Shown here piece after piece: positions 14,887-23,679 of a DNA stretch of 36,139 nt. The translations under genes and the position numbers were made by a program. Source of the stretch: Candidatus Cloacimonadota bacterium. GTDB lineage: Bacteria; Cloacimonadota; Cloacimonadia; Cloacimonadales; TCS61. The first letter of the stretch is position 1; the number at the start of each line of letters is the position of its first letter. Under the pieces are notes generated by a model that saw nothing but the letters and a program-made list of their open reading frames with translations, did no database searches and had not been told where the DNA came from. The stretch spans positions 1 through 36,139 of the forward strand of contig JAGLPW010000083.1 in the NCBI GenBank assembly GCA_023137125.1. Direction: 5' to 3'.

Positions 14887-14904
14887 CCAACCGTTCACGG
14901 TTGG
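14887..14904 (-). terminator. Hairpin terminator, minus strand, second in tandem
   Basis: On the minus strand CCAACCG, loop TGAA and CGGTTGG form a perfect seven-pair stem (14887-14904), followed by GTTATTTTAAAAT. It would act as a second stop for the surface-protein operon. Confidence 0.5.
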
Positions 14905-14969: not shown

Positions 14970-17024
14970 TTATTTCAGCAGAATCATTTTCCTTATCCTG
15001 TGAAACTCTGTTGTAACCATATTGTAAAAATATAGTCCGCTTGCAACTGATTTACCATTATGATCTTTGCCATTCCAAACAGTATGGTGGAACCCAATAT
15101 CTTTATATCCATCTACCAATGTGAGGATCTTCCTGCCCTTGATATTGAATATCTCAATTTTAACTCTACCCGCATTTACAAGAGAATAATTGATAGTAGT
15201 TATCGGATTAAATGGATTCGGGAAATTTTGGCTTAGATCGGTTGTTACCGGTAAGATATCTCCAGCATCGGATCCCTCTTCAACCTGAACGATCCAGATA
15301 GTTTCAATAGTATATTCCTCATCAGATGCTAATGATTTGATCTCGATATCACCCACAACTTCGAAGATATGAATGAACTCCTCTGTTGATTCGGTTTGCA
15401 AGATATCATCAACAAACCATTCGTATTCTATTGTACTATCGATATCCTCTACTTCCACACTGAATGTAACAGTACTATCTTCTACAACTGTAAACTCAAG
15501 TTCTTCAGGTTGGAAACCAATGAGAACCGGTTCATCATTAACCGGAGTTACAATCACATCCACATCATCTTCTGCAGTTGCTCTGGATGCATTATCATCA
15601 ATTATGAAAGTGAGTGTCTCCGTTCCATTCCAATTTTCAGTTGCTCCAAATGTAACTTCCAGTCCATCAATATCAACAATAACCTCTATATTCCCTGTAA
15701 CGGAAAGTGTAAGATCATCCGGGTCAACATCATAAACAAATTCTGTGAAATCTACTATCAGTCCTCCATCTTCCTCAAATGTGAAATTTGCTGGTAAGAT
15801 AATTGTTGGATCGTCATTTACAGGAAGTACGATAACATCTACATCATCTTCTGCAGTTGCTCGGCTGTTCTCACTTATCGTGTTGTTTCTCTTTTGTGAA
15901 TTTCTTCTACCGGTTGAGAAGGAAACTCTGTCACCCTGACCATCATCAACTGTAAAAGTGAGTATCTCTGAACCATTCCAATTTTCAGTTGCTCCAAAGG
16001 TAACTTGCAGATCAGCAATTTCAACTGTGACCTCAGTGTTACCTTCTACAGTGAGAGTAAGAACATCAAGGTCAACGTCTTCAACATATTCCGCGAAGTC
16101 TACAATCAGTTCTTGATCTTCTTCGAATGTGAAATCATCAGGTAATGTAATTGTTGGGTCATCATTAACCGGAGTTACGATTATTTCTACATCATCCTCA
16201 GCAATTGCCCTGTTGTTGTCTTCAATTTTACTGGTATTTCTTTTACCGCTTGTAAAGGAAATTCTGTCACCCTGACCATCATCAACAGTAAAAATGAGTG
16301 TCTCGGTTCCATTCCAATTTTCGCTAGCACCAAATGTAACTTCCAAATCAACAATATCAACCGTGACCTCTATATTTCCTGTAACGGAAAGCGTGAGATC
16401 ATCCAGATCAATATCATCAACATATTGTGTGAAATCAACCATCATTCCATTATCTTCATCAAATGTGAAATTATCCGGTAACACAATTGTTGGAGCATCA
16501 TTAACCGAAGTTACAATAATATCTACATCATCAGAAGCTACAGATCTATTCATATTATCATTGGCTGTAAAAGTGAGTATTTCTGTTCCATTCCAATCCG
16601 GTGTAGAACTGAATGTGACAATGAAATCGACAATATCTACAATTATTTCAGTATTCCCACTAACACTTAATGTAACAATATCTCCATTAATATCATTAAT
16701 AAATGGTGCAAAATCCACAATAAGAACATCGTCTTCTTCAAATGTGAAATCATCCGGCAATATTATTGTGGGTGTATGATTATTTGGTTGCAGGAAACCG
16801 GGATAAAATATATATCCAGTACTTGTTTCTATATCGCCGGCAATTCCCAACATTGAGTTTTCCATAAGATCATAGCTTGCTGATCCCGGGGGAGATTCCT
16901 GGTTGGGATTACCTGTAAGAAATCCTCGTTGAATCAGTATGAAGTTGTCGCTTGATGGCTGATCTGCAGATATATAAGAAACAAAAAGCAGGCAACATAA
17001 TAGGATCAATATTATAATTTTCAT
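14970..17024 (-). CDS. Secreted tandem-repeat (cadherin-like) protein with T9SS type A sorting domain
   Basis: This 684-residue exported protein has a signal peptide (residues 1-20) and an N-terminal module to about 80. Four tandem Ig/cadherin-like repeats of 91-115 residues start at about 85, 178, 289 and 406, each beginning PTI-x-LP-x-x-FTFEED, carrying ENWNGTETLTF-like centres and ending in the Asp-rich AEDDV-x-x-IVTPVNDDP. A diverged fifth domain spans about 497-582. Residues 600-684 are a sorting domain: FPNPFNPITTINYSL, then VKIEIFNIKGRKI, and GLYFYNMV with a basic end. Such domains direct cargo through a type IX-like secretion system to the surface. Acidic motifs suggest calcium binding. 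Repeats 2 and 3 carry basic inserts (about 250-272 and 362-388). Its ATG overlaps the stop of the preceding tail-fibre gene (ATGA), so the two are translationally coupled. A role in adhesion is inferred. Confidence 0.88.
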   Translation of the reverse strand: MKIIILILLCCLLFVSYISADQPSSDNFILIQRGFLTGNPNQESPPGSASYDLMENSMLGIAGDIETSTGYIFYPGFLQPNNHTPTIILPDDFTFEEDDVLIVDFAPFINDINGDIVTLSVSGNTEIIVDIVDFIVTFSSTPDWNGTEILTFTANDNMNRSVASDDVDIIVTSVNDAPTIVLPDNFTFDEDNGMMVDFTQYVDDIDLDDLTLSVTGNIEVTVDIVDLEVTFGASENWNGTETLIFTVDDGQGDRISFTSGKRNTSKIEDNNRAIAEDDVEIIVTPVNDDPTITLPDDFTFEEDQELIVDFAEYVEDVDLDVLTLTVEGNTEVTVEIADLQVTFGATENWNGSEILTFTVDDGQGDRVSFSTGRRNSQKRNNTISENSRATAEDDVDVIVLPVNDDPTIILPANFTFEEDGGLIVDFTEFVYDVDPDDLTLSVTGNIEVIVDIDGLEVTFGATENWNGTETLTFIIDDNASRATAEDDVDVIVTPVNDEPVLIGFQPEELEFTVVEDSTVTFSVEVEDIDSTIEYEWFVDDILQTESTEEFIHIFEVVGDIEIKSLASDEEYTIETIWIVQVEEGSDAGDILPVTTDLSQNFPNPFNPITTINYSLVNAGRVKIEIFNIKGRKILTLVDGYKDIGFHHTVWNGKDHNGKSVASGLYFYNMVTTEFHRIRKMILLK

Positions 17025-18691
17025 AATTTCTCCTTTATCTGCTGTTGCAGCTCTTCTATCTGTTCTTGCTGCTCTTTTATTGCTTCTATTAACACAGGAA
17101 TAAGACCAATATAATTAATTCCTTTATATTCGAGTTTTTCCATATCTTTTTCTGCACCTTCGACACCTTCATTTTTGTCGTAAGCATGAACAATATCCTC
17201 AACAAGTTCGGGAATAATTTCTTCCAGTTCCTGGGCTATCAGACCGATCTGTTCACCTTCAGGTAACACTAATTGCTTTTCTTCTGTCATTTGAATAAAA
17301 TTAAAAGTATGCACATTCATAAGTTTGATTTTAGAAAGGGCATTCCTAAATGGGTGCACATTTTCTTTGAAGTGCTCATCGGAAGGACCGGTAAGTGTTC
17401 CGGTATAATGAACATTACCATTGAAATACCCGGCATAGTTAGTGCTGCCATTGTAGGCTCCACCAAAAATTGCAACATTTGTACCTGAACCACCAGCAAC
17501 TCGACCATATACTCCATAATAAGTGTTGTTTCCTGTTGGTAGTACTTTACCTTCAACACCACAGAAACCACCAACAAAAAATCCACCATAGCCCCAGCCA
17601 TCAGACGATATTGACTCACCGTAAACAGCTTTAGCATTAAAATTACCAGTACCGGTGATCTCAGCATGAACTGCATGTGAACTGCTACTATTATAATTTG
17701 CTCTAAAATAACCACCATAATAACCTGTACTATAACCGTAAACACCAGCACCACTATCTGTAGTATTATAACCAAAAACGGCATATCCACCATTTGTGTT
17801 GTTTCTTCCATAAACAGCTATATTGGATGAACCTAAATACCCATAATTACCACTGCTGTCATGCTTACCATAAGCACCATAATCTGTTGAGCCTATGTAA
17901 CCGTGATTACCATTGCCCCAATGAATACCCCATACTCCATATCCGCCAGTAGATGCATTACTAAGTCCATAAACACCAGAACCGTAATTTGTATAATTAC
18001 CACCATAAACGCCATAACTGGTTGAACCTAAAAAACCATAATTACCAGTGCTGATATTTTTGCCAGTAACACCGAAACCATTACTACTGGTATTCTCGCC
18101 CTTAATTACGCTATTTGGGTTAGCAAGATTAGCTGTGAGGTTGAGTGGAACATCCACATTTAAAGTTACGGCACCGGAAGTTCCTCCACCATTTAAGCCC
18201 GTGCCTGCAGCAACTGCTGTAATATCACCCCAAGTTGTGGTTGCTGGCATAAAATCAGATGAATTCTGTCCATCCAACAGATCGGCATCCAGCCCGGAAC
18301 CGGAACCCATATTCTGCAATGTGTAGGCTGTTTCCGCTTTAATAGCATAAGGAACGCTGGCAATAGTTGTACGAGGGGAAAGTGTCTCTCCGCCTACAAC
18401 TAATTCTAACCAGCGATCAGCACCATCGAAAAGATAGGGTGGGAAAGAAACCATTGAACCAAGCAATACATGAAAAATACCATTTGTTGTAGAAACATCC
18501 TGCGATTCACTCCAAAGTAAAGTTCCACCCGTTTCTGCATTATAGATCAAAAAATCAACTGTGACTACACTGTTTAGATAATTTCCATCACTGTCGGCAA
18601 ATCTGCCCTGGTAGTCTATTGTTTGCGGAACATTTTGTGCACAGAGGCACATTGAAGTAAATAATAAAATGATGATAATTGTTTTTTTCAT
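17021..18691 (-). CDS. Secreted tail-fibre-like protein with C-terminal S74 chaperone domain (paralog C)
   Basis: This 556-residue protein is the third of three tandem paralogs. It has a Sec signal (MKKTIIIILLFTSMCLCAQ), the shared module with TIDYQGRFADSDGNYLN, and the fibre-like LQNMGSGSGLDADLLDGQ and AGTGLNGGGTSGAVTLNVD. A Gly/Tyr/Asn-rich region of about 20-residue GVYG units follows. From S437 a Peptidase_S74 domain (PSDEHFKENVHPF) runs to the end, with a coiled coil in the last 25 residues. In phage endosialidase this domain trimerises the fibre and then cleaves itself off. Compared with paralogs A and B it lacks about 133 residues in the middle and has His for Arg in the SDER motif. 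I start at 18691, behind GGAGAG; an upstream ATG at 18739 has no ribosome site. The stop overlaps the next gene. Confidence 0.88.
   Translation of the reverse strand: MKKTIIIILLFTSMCLCAQNVPQTIDYQGRFADSDGNYLNSVVTVDFLIYNAETGGTLLWSESQDVSTTNGIFHVLLGSMVSFPPYLFDGADRWLELVVGGETLSPRTTIASVPYAIKAETAYTLQNMGSGSGLDADLLDGQNSSDFMPATTTWGDITAVAAGTGLNGGGTSGAVTLNVDVPLNLTANLANPNSVIKGENTSSNGFGVTGKNISTGNYGFLGSTSYGVYGGNYTNYGSGVYGLSNASTGGYGVWGIHWGNGNHGYIGSTDYGAYGKHDSSGNYGYLGSSNIAVYGRNNTNGGYAVFGYNTTDSGAGVYGYSTGYYGGYFRANYNSSSSHAVHAEITGTGNFNAKAVYGESISSDGWGYGGFFVGGFCGVEGKVLPTGNNTYYGVYGRVAGGSGTNVAIFGGAYNGSTNYAGYFNGNVHYTGTLTGPSDEHFKENVHPFRNALSKIKLMNVHTFNFIQMTEEKQLVLPEGEQIGLIAQELEEIIPELVEDIVHAYDKNEGVEGAEKDMEKLEYKGINYIGLIPVLIEAIKEQQEQIEELQQQIKEKL
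17211..17320. repeat. 110-bp block identical to 18947-19056
   Basis: This stretch within the S74 domain of paralog C is base-for-base identical to 18947-19056 in paralog B, ending abruptly at both edges (mismatches begin at once). It encodes MNVHTFNFIQMTEEKQL to the ELEEIIP region. The third paralog differs at several sites in the same segment, so recent gene conversion or duplication between B and C is likely. Confidence 0.8.
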
Positions 18692-18741
18692 AATTCTCTC
18701 CTTTTTTACAAATCTATTTTTTAAAAAATGTAAATACATTA

Positions 18742-20523
18742 TTAATTACCGACAGATCTTAAGAGTTCATCGATCTGTCTTTGCTGTTCTTCGTTTTGTG
18801 TGTTTAATTCTTTTATGGCTTCTATCAACACAGGGATAAGACCAATATAATTTATTCCTTTATATTCGATCTGATCCATATCTCTTTCAGCTCCTTCAAT
18901 TCCTTCGTTCCTGTTATAAGTATGAATATTATCCGAAACCAGATCAGGAATAATTTCTTCCAGTTCCTGGGCTATCAGACCGATCTGTTCACCTTCAGGT
19001 AACACTAATTGCTTTTCTTCTGTCATTTGAATAAAATTAAAAGTATGCACATTCATTAGTTTTATTTTGGAAAGGGCATTGTTGAATGGCTGCACATTCT
19101 CTTTGAAGCGTTCATCAGAAGCATTGATGAGTGTTCCGGTATAAGCTAAATCACCACTGAAATACCCAGCATAGTTAGTGCTGCCACTAGCGGCAATGCC
19201 ATAAATTCCAAAATTTGTGCCTGAACCACTTGCAGCACCCCGAATTCCATAATTAAAACCTGAACCACCGGAAACGTCAGCCTTCACTCCATAATAGTAG
19301 GAACTTCCTGTTGGAATTACTATGCTATAAACACCATGATATCCTCCTTCAAAATATCCACCATAAATTGCACCATTACCATGAACTCCAAAAGAAGATG
19401 TACCTAAATAACCGTAATTACCACTGTTGCTATTTTCACCATAAACTCCGTAAAAGGCTGAACCCAAATAACCAAAATTACCACTGTTGCTATTTTCACC
19501 ATAAACTCCGTAACCCAAACCGGTATTTTCTCCCTTAATAACGCTATTTGGGTCAGAAACACTTCCACTAAGGTTGAGGGGAACATCAACATTTAAAGTT
19601 ACATCACCGGAAGTGCCACCGCCATTTAAACCTGTACCTGCAGTTACGGCTGTTATGTCACCACCTGCAGACAATGTCTGCCAAGAGGCAGCTCCATTTG
19701 CATCGGAAGTGAGAACCTTGTTTACGCCCTGGCTGCCATCAACTATTTTAATGCTGCCTTCAACGTGTAATTCGGTGTCGGGAGAATCTGTTCCTATACC
19801 TACGTACCCTCCATTAAAGTAACTATTCCCATCAGCAGTAATTATAGTTGAAACCGGTCCGTTATCATACAGATAAAGACCACCAGCTCCAGAACCATTA
19901 GTACCAAGCTGACCTAATATTTCTGAATTAACCTGCCATTGGATTGGGTTGGCACCGGTACTATTAACAGTAAGCATACGGCTGGGTGCTGCTGTCCCAA
20001 TTCCCACATAATTCTGCACAATCAGTTGTCCTGTCATAGAATCACCGGTTGTATTCACCCAATCATCAGTAGTTGCTGGCATAAAATCAGATGAATCCTG
20101 TCCGTCCAGCAAATCGGCATCCAAACCGGAACCGGAACCCATATTCTGCAATGTGTAGGCGGTTTCAGCTTTAATCGCATAAGGAATACTGGCAATAACT
20201 GTTCGAGGTGAAAGTGTTTCACTACTTACAATTAGTTCCAACCAACGGTCTGCTCCATCGAAAAGATCGGGTGGGAAAGTAACTAAAGAACCAAGCAAAA
20301 CATGAAAAATACCATTAGCAGTTGAAACATCCTGTGTTTCACTCCAGAGTGCAGTTCCACCGGTCTCTATATCATAGATTAGAAAATCAACAGTGACTAC
20401 ACTGTTCAGGTAGTTGCCGCTATTATCAGCAAGCCTACCCTGGTAGTCTATGGTTTGCGGTACATTCTGTGCCCATAGGCACAACGAGGTAAAGAGTAAA
20501 ATAGTGATAAATAATTTATTCAT
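18742..20523 (-). CDS. Secreted tail-fibre-like protein with C-terminal S74 chaperone domain (paralog B)
   Basis: This 593-residue protein is the second paralog of the array, with signal MNKLFITILLFTSLCLWAQ and the shared N-terminal module. A fibre module carries MTGQLIVQNYVGIGTAAPSR and GIGTDSPDTELHVEG, the latter being the GIGT-x-x-P-x-x-x-L-x-V repeat seen in tail-fibre-type proteins, followed by AGTGLNGGGTSGDVTLNVD. A short GVYGENSNSGNYGYLG repeat region and an S74 domain from about S469 (ASDERFKENVQPF) follow, then a coiled-coil end. The likely fate is export, trimerisation, and autocleavage just before the SDER serine; the cleavage is inferred from the family. AGGAGGTCGT precedes the ATG. 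Paralog C starts 50 bases after its stop. Confidence 0.9.
   Translation of the reverse strand: MNKLFITILLFTSLCLWAQNVPQTIDYQGRLADNSGNYLNSVVTVDFLIYDIETGGTALWSETQDVSTANGIFHVLLGSLVTFPPDLFDGADRWLELIVSSETLSPRTVIASIPYAIKAETAYTLQNMGSGSGLDADLLDGQDSSDFMPATTDDWVNTTGDSMTGQLIVQNYVGIGTAAPSRMLTVNSTGANPIQWQVNSEILGQLGTNGSGAGGLYLYDNGPVSTIITADGNSYFNGGYVGIGTDSPDTELHVEGSIKIVDGSQGVNKVLTSDANGAASWQTLSAGGDITAVTAGTGLNGGGTSGDVTLNVDVPLNLSGSVSDPNSVIKGENTGLGYGVYGENSNSGNFGYLGSAFYGVYGENSNSGNYGYLGTSSFGVHGNGAIYGGYFEGGYHGVYSIVIPTGSSYYYGVKADVSGGSGFNYGIRGAASGSGTNFGIYGIAASGSTNYAGYFSGDLAYTGTLINASDERFKENVQPFNNALSKIKLMNVHTFNFIQMTEEKQLVLPEGEQIGLIAQELEEIIPDLVSDNIHTYNRNEGIEGAERDMDQIEYKGINYIGLIPVLIEAIKELNTQNEEQQRQIDELLRSVGN
18947..19056. 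repeat. 110-bp block identical to 17211-17320
   Basis: This is the paralog B partner of the identical block described at 17211-17320. Outside it the two genes differ by silent and replacement changes. Confidence 0.8.
19416..19513. repeat. 60-bp tandem coding repeat in paralog B
   Basis: A 38-base unit (AATTACCACTG to TCCGTAA) occurs at 19416-19453 and again, identically, at 19476-19513, exactly 60 bases apart. It encodes two near-identical 20-residue GVYGENSNSGN units. This indicates recent slippage or unequal crossing-over in the repeat region. Confidence 0.85.
19970..20037. repeat. 68-bp block identical to 22017-22084
   Basis: This segment of paralog B, encoding the IVQNYVGIGTAAPSRML region, is identical to 22017-22084 in paralog A. 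It is a second patch of recent sequence exchange, involving a different pair of genes from the 110-bp block. Confidence 0.8.
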
Positions 20524-20593
20524 ACGACCTCCTTTTTAAAAATTCGGACAGCTAAGGTAAAGGCTTATAAATCGTTAATCTATCCCCATGTTA

Positions 20594-22576
20594 TTAGTTA
20601 TTAGCAGATCTCAGAAGTTCATTGATCTGTCTTTGCTGTTCAACTAACTTTTGTTGTTGATCTTCGTTTTGTGTGTTTAATTCTTTTATTGCTTCTATCA
20701 ACACCGGAATAAGACCGATATAATTTATTCCTTTATATTCAATTCTTTCCATATCACTATCTGCTCCTTCGAGACCTTCATTTTTATCGTAAGCATGTAC
20801 TTCATCCTTCACAAGTTCAGGAAGTATTTCTTCCAGTTCCTGGGCTATCAAACCGATCTGTTCACCTTCAGGCAGAACAAATTGCTTTTCTTCTTCCATT
20901 TGTATGAAATTATAAGTATGCACATTCATTAGCTTTATTTTGGAAAGAGCATTTTTAAATGGTTGCACATTTTCTTTGAAGCGCTCATCTGAAGGATTGG
21001 TGAATGTTCCGGTAACATGTACATTACCACTGAAATACCCGGCATAGTTAGTGCTACCACCAATGGCAAAGCCATAAATTCCATAATTTGTACCTGAACC
21101 ATAAGCATAACTATCAATTGCAACATTGTAACCTGAACCACCATAAACGTAACCTCTCACTCCAATAGACGAGCTACTGCCTGTTGGGAATGTCATACCA
21201 TAAACACCATAATCACCCCCCACAAATTGACCACCAATACCATTACCATCTGGTGGCGTGGATTCACCATAAACAGCTACTGCATTACTACTGGTACCGG
21301 TGAACTCAGCATGGATTACATGTGTATTGCTACTATTATAATTTGCATTAAAGTAACCACCATAATAACCTGTACTAGTACCGTGAACACCAAATCCACT
21401 AATATTATCGTTATAACCGTAAATGCCACTTCCAGAAGATGCATAATTAAATCCAGAAACGCCACTACTGGATGAACCTAAGAGACCATAATTACCGCTG
21501 CTGATATGTAGACCATATACACCACTTCCAGAACCATAATTTTCACCGTAAACGCCAAAGCCAGAACCAGTATTTTCACCCTCAATAACGCCATTTGGAT
21601 TTGCTACATTTCCACTCAGGTTGAGCGGAACATCCACATTCAAAGTTACATCACCGGAAGTGCCACCACCGGTTAAACCTGTACCTGCTGTTACTGCTGT
21701 TATATCTCCACCTGTAGGCAGTGTTTGCCAAGTAGCAGATCCATTTACATCGGAAGTGAGAACTTTGTTTATTCCCTGGTTGCCATCAACTATTTTAATG
21801 TTGCCTTCAACGTGTAATTCGGTGTCGGGAGTAACTGTTCCAATACCAACATTACCACCACTAAAGTAACTATTTCCATTGGCTGTAATTACTGTGGAAA
21901 TAGGTCCGTTATCATACAGATAAAGACCACCAGCACCAGAACCATTAGTGCCAAGCTGACCTAATATTAAAGCATTTACTTGCCATTGGATCGGATTAGC
22001 TCCGGTACTATTAACGGTAAGCATACGGCTGGGTGCTGCTGTCCCAATTCCCACATAATTCTGCACAATCAGTTGTCCTGTCATTGTATCACCTGTTGTA
22101 TCCACCCAGTTATCCGTGGTTGCAGGCATGAAGTCAGATGAATCCTGTCCATCCAGCAGGTCGGCATCCAAACCGGAACCGGAACCCATATTCTGCAGTG
22201 TGTATGCAGTTTCAGCTTTAATGGAATAGGGAACACTCGCTACAACTGTGCGAGGTGAAAGTGTTTCACTACTTACAATTAGCTCCAACCATCGATCCGA
22301 GCCATCGAAGAGGGTAGGTGGAAAGGAAACTATTGAACCGAGCAGTACATGGAATATCCCATTAGACATGGAAACATCCTGTGTTTCACTCCACAGTGCA
22401 GTTCCACCAGTATCTATATCATAGATTAGAAAATCAACTGTGACTACTATGTTAAGGTAGTTACCGTCACTATCAGCAAGCCTACCCTGGTAATCTATTG
22501 TTTGCGGTACATTTTGTGCCCAAAGGCACACTGAAATGAAAAATAAAATTGAAAAAGATAAAAATACTTTTTTCAT
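20594..22576 (-). CDS. Secreted tail-fibre-like protein with C-terminal S74 chaperone domain (paralog A)
   Basis: This 660-residue protein is the first and longest paralog, with signal MKKVFLSFSILFFISVCLWAQ. It shares the N-terminal module with B and C and carries MTGQLIVQNYVGIGT, GIGTVTPDTELHVEG and AGTGLTGGGTSGDVTLNVD. Its Gly/Tyr/Ser-rich repeat region is longer than that of B, with VYGENYGSGSGVYGLH and SGSGIYGYN-type units. An S74 chaperone domain from about S529 (PSDERFKENVQPF) and a C-terminal coiled coil (about 620-655, rich in Gln and Glu) finish it. A strong AAGGAG lies upstream of the ATG. As the first gene after a 260-base spacer it probably carries the operon promoter. There are no phage structural, lysis or integrase genes nearby, so it is a cellular surface protein. 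Confidence 0.9.
   Translation of the reverse strand: MKKVFLSFSILFFISVCLWAQNVPQTIDYQGRLADSDGNYLNIVVTVDFLIYDIDTGGTALWSETQDVSMSNGIFHVLLGSIVSFPPTLFDGSDRWLELIVSSETLSPRTVVASVPYSIKAETAYTLQNMGSGSGLDADLLDGQDSSDFMPATTDNWVDTTGDTMTGQLIVQNYVGIGTAAPSRMLTVNSTGANPIQWQVNALILGQLGTNGSGAGGLYLYDNGPISTVITANGNSYFSGGNVGIGTVTPDTELHVEGNIKIVDGNQGINKVLTSDVNGSATWQTLPTGGDITAVTAGTGLTGGGTSGDVTLNVDVPLNLSGNVANPNGVIEGENTGSGFGVYGENYGSGSGVYGLHISSGNYGLLGSSSSGVSGFNYASSGSGIYGYNDNISGFGVHGTSTGYYGGYFNANYNSSNTHVIHAEFTGTSSNAVAVYGESTPPDGNGIGGQFVGGDYGVYGMTFPTGSSSSIGVRGYVYGGSGYNVAIDSYAYGSGTNYGIYGFAIGGSTNYAGYFSGNVHVTGTFTNPSDERFKENVQPFKNALSKIKLMNVHTYNFIQMEEEKQFVLPEGEQIGLIAQELEEILPELVKDEVHAYDKNEGLEGADSDMERIEYKGINYIGLIPVLIEAIKELNTQNEDQQQKLVEQQRQINELLRSANN
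22017..22084. repeat. 68-bp block identical to 19970-20037
   Basis: This is the paralog A partner of the identical block described at 19970-20037. Confidence 0.8.
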
Positions 22577-22836: not shown

Positions 22837-23679
22837 TTATCTTTTTTGTATCTTCAAAAATACATCATCCATTTCTGGTAATAATTCCGGATCAATTCGT
22901 TTATCTTTCCAACCAGCGCCCCAATGCAGGTGATCTCCTGTTGAACGTCCGCTAGAGCCTACTTCACCGATCTTTTCACCTTTAAGGATATAATCTCCCT
23001 TTTTTACAGAAAGCTCGCTCATATGAATGTAAATGGAGCTTAATCCACCACCATGATCTATCAGTACGAATTTACCATTGTAATAATAATTTCCTGTTAG
23101 TGCTACAATACCGGTTGTCATTGCAAAAATATCTGTTCCCTTTGGAGCAGCTATATCAAGTCCGTTATGCGGAGAAACTGTAATACCGTTCAATATTCTA
23201 TTACTGCCAAAAACTCCTGTTACCTCTCCATTTTCTACAGGGATTCTAAAATCATCTAAGTAAATGAACTGGTTGTTATGAATATTTTTCCGAATATCTT
23301 GCATTGTAGAATATTCACGTTCGATCCTGTTTATCACATCCGGATCTGTTGGATCTTCAAGATATTCAGGTGGGATATCATCAATTCTTTGAGTTTCATA
23401 TTCCCGCTTTGTTAGGTAGAATTTAGTTGTTATCATTTCACCACTTTTCATAACAAAGGTTAAAACATGACGGAGTTTTGCATCGCGATCAAAACCTAAT
23501 ATGGCTCTATTTTCAAAGATGAAAATTTCTATGTGATCAAGGAATAATTTTTCTATAGAACTATCAGTTTTGCATATGAGAATTCCACCCTGTACCGGAT
23601 TACCTCGCAAAGAAATAAGTTCTTTTGCTGAGAGTTGAACTGACATGATTAAGAACAGTACAAGTAGTAATTTTTTCAT
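22837..23679 (-). CDS. M23 family metallopeptidase (LytM/peptidoglycan endopeptidase-like), exported
   Basis: This 280-residue exported protein has a signal peptide (to about SA-19). The C-terminal peptidase domain shows the M23 zinc motifs: H171-x3-D175 in SPHNGLDIAAP, H219 in IYIHMSEL, and H250-L-H252-W in TGDHLHWG, so all zinc ligands are present and it should be active. Residues 20-140 form an unrecognised N-terminal beta-rich domain. The enzyme probably cleaves peptidoglycan cross-bridges in the periplasm. It follows BatE by only eight bases and appears to be the last gene of the Bat operon, which ties cell-wall cleavage to that system by context. Confidence 0.92.
   Translation of the reverse strand: MKKLLLVLFLIMSVQLSAKELISLRGNPVQGGILICKTDSSIEKLFLDHIEIFIFENRAILGFDRDAKLRHVLTFVMKSGEMITTKFYLTKREYETQRIDDIPPEYLEDPTDPDVINRIEREYSTMQDIRKNIHNNQFIYLDDFRIPVENGEVTGVFGSNRILNGITVSPHNGLDIAAPKGTDIFAMTTGIVALTGNYYYNGKFVLIDHGGGLSSIYIHMSELSVKKGDYILKGEKIGEVGSSGRSTGDHLHWGAGWKDKRIDPELLPEMDDVFLKIQKR

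Follow-up and report, generated by a model that had tools for sequence, protein, structure and literature searches.

What are three secreted proteins that look like phage tail fibres doing side by side in a bacterial chromosome, and what might hold them to the cell? The question is raised by a 36,139-nucleotide stretch of Candidatus Cloacimonadota DNA, hereafter the window (contig JAGLPW010000083.1 of assembly GCA_023137125.1, positions 1 to 36,139), from a genome of 2.93 Mb in 199 contigs that is 86% complete. On its minus strand lies a four-gene unit, read from 22576 to 14970, in which three fibre genes, A, B and C, are followed by a partner gene, D. We conclude that the locus is very probably an array of fibre proteins like the MAT proteins of Bdellovibrio. 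The fuller claim, that these chromosomal genes encode an array of trimeric surface adhesins of MAT type and, with them, a probable docking protein, seems about as likely to be right as wrong; it turns on a short N-terminal domain of D, here named PD. The genes, with the evidence for each and with D ending in a tail of the type IX secretion system (T9SS), are as follows.

20594..22576, minus strand: gene A, MAT-like fibre protein of 660 residues (open reading frame (ORF), Sec-type signal, Bdello_MAT_N 48 bits, PF13884 58 bits)
18742..20523, minus strand: gene B, MAT-like fibre protein of 593 residues (ORF and domain matches)
17021..18691, minus strand: gene C, MAT-like fibre protein, start moved from 18739 to an inner ATG (Shine-Dalgarno sequence, domain matches)
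14970..17024, minus strand: gene D, partner protein of 684 residues with signal, PD, Big/cadherin repeats and T9SS tail (ORF and domain matches)

Each fibre protein comprises a signal peptide, a common N-terminal domain (N-domain), fibre repeats, a Peptidase_S74 domain and a C-terminal stretch that looks helical from its sequence; identity to A is 80% for B and 75% for C. Peptidase_S74 (PF13884) was matched at 58 bits in A, 55 in B and 48 in C, against a cut-off of 22, and the SDxxxK motif with its catalytic serine and lysine is intact in all three. The first-pass annotation had described three tandem genes with a Sec signal, a common N-terminal module, repeats and an S74 domain carrying SDER or SDEH, a layout that these scores, the motifs and the hydrophobic N-termini bear out.

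22205..22513, minus strand: MAT-type N-domain of A, residues 22-124 (NF053851 match; ratio of nonsynonymous to synonymous substitution rates, dN/dS, about 0.1)
20807..20992, minus strand: Peptidase_S74 domain of A, SDERFK at residue 529 (PDB relatives 7dc3 and 6f45)
18937..19119, minus strand: Peptidase_S74 domain of B, SDERFK at residue 469 (domain and motif)
17201..17383, minus strand: Peptidase_S74 domain of C, SDEHFK at residue 453 of the long ORF (domain and motif)

The N-domains of A, B and C match the NCBIfam family Bdello_MAT_N (NF053851) at 47-53 bits (E 3e-12 to 3e-14). Since the curated cut-off of 60 bits is missed, we call the proteins MAT-like. In MAT proteins a signal peptide and a conserved β-rich domain of about 130 residues are followed by a trimeric fibre, which terminates either in S74 with SDxxxK or in a different tip (Caulton et al. 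2024; PMC10769870). In Bdellovibrio their autocleavage and surface display have been demonstrated, and they account for the recognition of varied prey (PMC10769870). Like the S74 subgroup of these proteins (e.g. Bd3182), A, B and C combine a signal peptide and a homologous β-rich N-domain of similar size with a fibre region and an S74 end bearing SDxxxK, in paralogues whose tips differ. Unlike them, they are 572-660 residues long rather than about 1,000, fall under the Bdello_MAT_N cut-off, form a tandem array in a Cloacimonadota bacterium without evidence of predation, and are paired with a PD/T9SS protein, a partner absent from the description in PMC10769870. Because S74 fibres in bacteria are already known, A, B and C add new members to an established class; the first-pass view of S74 use in this setting as inference gives way to the use already established for Bdellovibrio MAT proteins.

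Could the array instead be a prophage remnant, or a captured phage tail-fibre cassette? With phage tail fibres and endosialidases A, B and C share the S74 chaperone, SDxxxK, the repeats before it and the helix after it, and they match tail-fibre PHROGs strongly, mainly via the S74 region, as well as the phage fibre 6f45. Unlike phage fibres, they carry signal peptides and a MAT N-domain in a chromosomal bacterial context, and the N-domain had zero matches in 50,697 phage records. Among the scanned flanking genes we found no phage genes, in agreement with the first reading; the flanks hold housekeeping and metabolic genes and a Bat/M23 cluster. The M23 peptidase gene directly upstream of the array (window 22837-23679) has a like gene upstream in several same-genus species, which therefore marks the array as a stable locus. 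Sec signals, purifying selection, the housekeeping flanks and this shared M23 neighbour all argue against a phage origin. Of eleven matches to viral contigs, two were examined: L162 is without evident phage structural genes, and L155 has recombinase and ParB-like genes near its MAT-like genes. On the phage-record null and the housekeeping flanks we rejected a prophage origin, which we regard as extremely improbable. In L155, an IMG/VR contig, there are three MAT-like genes, and part of an NlpC/P60 protein is PD-like; this contig is perhaps a mobile element bearing such fibres.

The three paralogues vary by module. In comparisons among them the N-domain has a dN/dS of 0.07-0.11, the stalk (A versus B) 0.17, S74 0.14 for A-B and A-C and 0.31 for B-C, and the last C-terminal segment 0.08-0.12. 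In the tip repeats the ratio reaches 0.57-0.67 with 58-127 gapped positions, a value inflated by repeat misalignment. As the dS of these repeats is ordinary (0.52-0.62), we take the contrast between ends and tip as real: the fibre ends are under purifying selection, and the tip repeats are relaxed and indel-rich.

21017..21565, minus strand: diversified tip repeats of A, residues 338-520, directly before S74 (dN/dS 0.57-0.67, many indels among paralogues)

Other species of the genus have tandem arrays of 2-4 copies, in some of which the Legionella collagen-like C-terminal domain (Lcl_C) replaces S74 (L045 3311-4861; L047 8401-9780), a natural tip swap. This module-wise selection, together with the copies with swapped tips, matches the constant-base, changing-tip pattern of MAT proteins. 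Contigs of relatives often stop within or right beside MAT genes (L042, L044, L045, L047, L054, L058 and others); such breaks fit assemblies broken at repeats, and the copy numbers from metagenomes are therefore probably too low.

What, then, is the partner? D carries PD, four Big_9/cadherin-like stretches and a C-terminal sorting domain, at the positions given below. Its gene does overlap that of C through ATGA (17021-17024), as first reported, and the type A T9SS tail reported with it is borderline, passing the TIGR04183 cut-off (26.6 bits versus 23) and missing that of Pfam PF18962 (25.8 versus 27).

16782..16964, minus strand: PD domain of D, residues about 21-81 (profile match 16785-16955, E 5.7e-15)
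14973..15224, minus strand: type A T9SS C-terminal sorting domain of D, residues 601-684 (TIGR04183, 26.6 bits)

Our search for the secretion machinery covered SprA and the PorV family. The translocon gene sprA is present in this genome and in 20 of 20 relatives searched (SprA 510 bits versus a cut-off of 200). This genome has a large set of T9SS shuttle-like proteins: 17 PorV-family matches on contigs C142, C4, C143, C1, C69 and others, of which six, in five genes, exceed the cut-off. Like type A cargo of Bacteroidota and their relatives, D joins a Sec signal to a C-terminal sorting domain in a genome with sprA and PorV-family genes; unlike such cargo, its sorting domain is borderline, and neither PD nor pairing with MAT genes is a T9SS feature.

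A single further MAT-like gene occurs in the genome, on contig C56 (271 residues, with the N-domain common to A, B and C). It is followed after 15 bases by a gene for a 185-residue protein with a T9SS tail, so that both MAT loci of the genome have a PD/T9SS protein next downstream. The tails of the C56 partner and D match, and the match between their N-termini is weak (29% in 62 columns; E 1e-4 in a pairwise comparison that includes the signal peptide). The name PD denotes this N-terminal domain of about 50 residues in the partner proteins; its consensus over 75 sequences is NYQLNWQVISGGGGNSSSTNYKLKGTIGQTAAGSSTSTNYQLGPGFW. PD corresponds to no Pfam family, and short PD proteins match Pfam through their tails alone. 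Predicted from 42 sequences, its structure (pLDDT 63, pTM 0.38) has short strands only, with no fold assigned. PD proteins differ greatly in size and content: among 38 of them a T9SS tail was matched in 13 and a dockerin in 11. Either module is an established way of keeping a protein attached to a surface or scaffold. A T9SS tail was rejected as the conserved feature of the partner, since many partners are without one; that feature is the N-terminal PD. As far as shown by the libraries and literature that we searched, mostly outside subscription journals, this conserved partner is undescribed. The first-pass inventory held the right four genes and overlooked both the N-terminal domain of D and the second gene pair on C56. 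Its proposal of a surface system of phage-style fibres and T9SS cargo stands as far as a host-encoded pairing goes, given the lack of phage genes, the phage null for the N-domain and sprA, but the T9SS tail is not a conserved part of that pairing and is often replaced by a dockerin in other phyla. A cohesin/dockerin system has been reported from Cloacimonadota, with a scaffold whose conserved C-terminal domain serves cell-surface attachment (PMC8542988).

How closely is PD tied to MAT genes? In Cloacimonadota most MAT genes adjoin a PD gene wherever the contig continues (L056 is an exception). A scan of one genome per species yielded 78 MAT loci. A PD profile seeded from Cloacimonadota alone recovered, outside that phylum, 16 PD genes in round one and 27 after iteration. 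In those loci, 32 of 32 PD genes lay within three genes of a MAT gene and 31 of the 32 were on the same strand; against 32 observed within two genes, 2,000 rounds of within-locus permutation averaged 16.5 and never exceeded 25. Because the 78 loci had been picked around MAT genes, we scanned 22 whole genomes, where 38 of 47 PD matches had a MAT gene at most 6 kb away, in every case on the same strand, with 1.4 expected. The PD profile, A5, drew partly on genes picked for adjoining MAT genes, and we therefore added a test on 37 unseen Zixibacteria genomes, none of them used for profile building. These gave 81 PD matches, at least 44 of them near MAT genes among the matches listed, with 1.5 expected; a somewhat more permissive profile revealed a MAT gene near 22 further PD loci, raising the count to at least 66 of 81. 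PD stands beside MAT N-domain genes in about ten bacterial phyla, in either order and nearly always on the same strand. A link of PD to S74 is unsupported, as 5 of 33 PD-neighbouring MAT genes match an S74 profile, a narrow one made from three close sequences. In one Zixibacteria genome a 238-residue ORF (L186 5786-6502) fuses a truncated MAT N-domain with the latter half of PD and an end resembling a dockerin; a chance deletion may simply have joined two neighbouring genes here, and we give the fusion little weight.

In a PD protein, then, the N-terminal domain is free and is linked to MAT genes, and the C-terminus is often an attachment module; a fibre dock is therefore the simplest reading. 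What the MAT N-domain binds at the surface is described as still to be identified (PMC10769870). With confidence a little short of even, we propose that PD may be a physical dock of the MAT fibres, which comes close to the 'adhesin plus scaffold' of the first-pass annotation. Somewhat more tentatively, the N-domain and PD could be a widespread docking pair, with PD as the surface receptor of self-processing fibres in many phyla and with exchangeable tips matched by exchangeable anchors (T9SS tail, dockerin, others).

The fibres might also be of MAT type and the PD protein an independent surface component, a second adhesin or a part of a matrix or scaffold, that is co-expressed with the fibre from a shared operon and never touches it. 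The Big/cadherin-like repeats of D could serve adhesion alone, PD proteins range widely in size and make-up, and there are solitary PD genes. Yet it is the short PD, not the remaining protein, that tracks MAT genes across the phyla, and mere co-expression would not hold one small domain as so constant a neighbour; we consider this alternative rather unlikely. Several points nonetheless weigh against our main reading. The argument for contact between PD and fibre is drawn wholly from the order of the genes and the layout of the domains. For each PD gene there are about three MAT genes, so many MAT proteins are without a PD neighbour, and some PD genes stand alone. A, B and C miss the Bdello_MAT_N subfamily cut-off, and the reading offers a MAT protein without a T9SS tail no evident passage through the outer membrane. 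Structure predictions of the N-domain (made without alignment; pLDDT 55, its PDB matches unusable) and of PD are too weak for judging fold or interface.

Might PD instead be a component of a pilus-like apparatus, with the MAT fibre as its tip or side fibre? In 11 of 38 PD proteins PD resembles the N-terminal part of the NCBIfam family CPR_pilus_PamT (NF058579), and one Parcubacteria locus has genes for a PilB-type ATPase, a PD protein and a MAT protein in line. A possible interplay of MAT proteins with type IV pili has also been mentioned (PMC10769870). The likeness to PamT, however, does not extend to the remaining protein, and its best match, 34.5 bits, does not approach the cut-off of 240; the PamT family is unmatched in this genome, and no pilus gene was recognised among the scanned genes of the window. 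We found no papers on PamT in the literature searched, and a description elsewhere is possible. T9SS tails and dockerins, moreover, fit a surface-bound protein better. A pilus link in some phyla is possible; as a general explanation of PD it seems improbable.

Returning to PD as a dock, we can sketch how the system would work. A, B and C would be exported by Sec and would trimerise via S74 and the following helix. S74 would cleave itself at the serine of SDxxxK, exposing the repeat region as the tip, and the fibre N-domain would remain at the cell. D would cross the outer membrane through the T9SS, its tail holding it on the surface, and its PD would bind the N-domain or another constant part of the fibre, fixing the fibres to the cell. 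In other bacteria PD would be tied down by another module, for example a dockerin. Several copies in tandem, alike at their ends and differing in their tips, could then supply a small binding repertoire. The analysis establishes the architecture, the catalytic motif, the pattern of selection, sprA and the conserved pairing of PD and MAT genes; trimerisation, cleavage, the binding of PD to the fibre, fibre passage through the outer membrane and the ligands are what we infer in this scheme.

The fine structure of the locus is compact. A and B are separated by 70 bases, B and C by 50, and all four proteins, A to D, have a Shine-Dalgarno sequence and a hydrophobic Sec-type N-terminus, as read from the sequence. 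The ORF of C extends to 18739, but a good ribosome-binding sequence precedes the inner ATG only, so its start most likely lies at 18691. One terminator-like stem lies 3′ of D; such stems are no more frequent at this locus than in shuffled sequence.

14887..14904, minus strand: terminator-like stem 3′ of D (pattern scan only)

Elsewhere, in Elusimicrobia, a gene for a PorV-like outer-membrane protein directly precedes the MAT gene (L127 5972-7879, L133 6931-7875, L138 6737-7744); that of L127 matches the PorV/PorQ family and has an OmpA-like end. This neighbour is possibly another anchor or export partner.

PD offers a concrete, testable candidate for what holds the constant end of MAT proteins to the cell. 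If that holds true, phage-style self-processing fibres would belong to the general surface equipment of little-studied environmental bacteria and would not be special to predators, and the many metagenome genes now annotated by their tail-fibre-like end alone would gain a direction for study.

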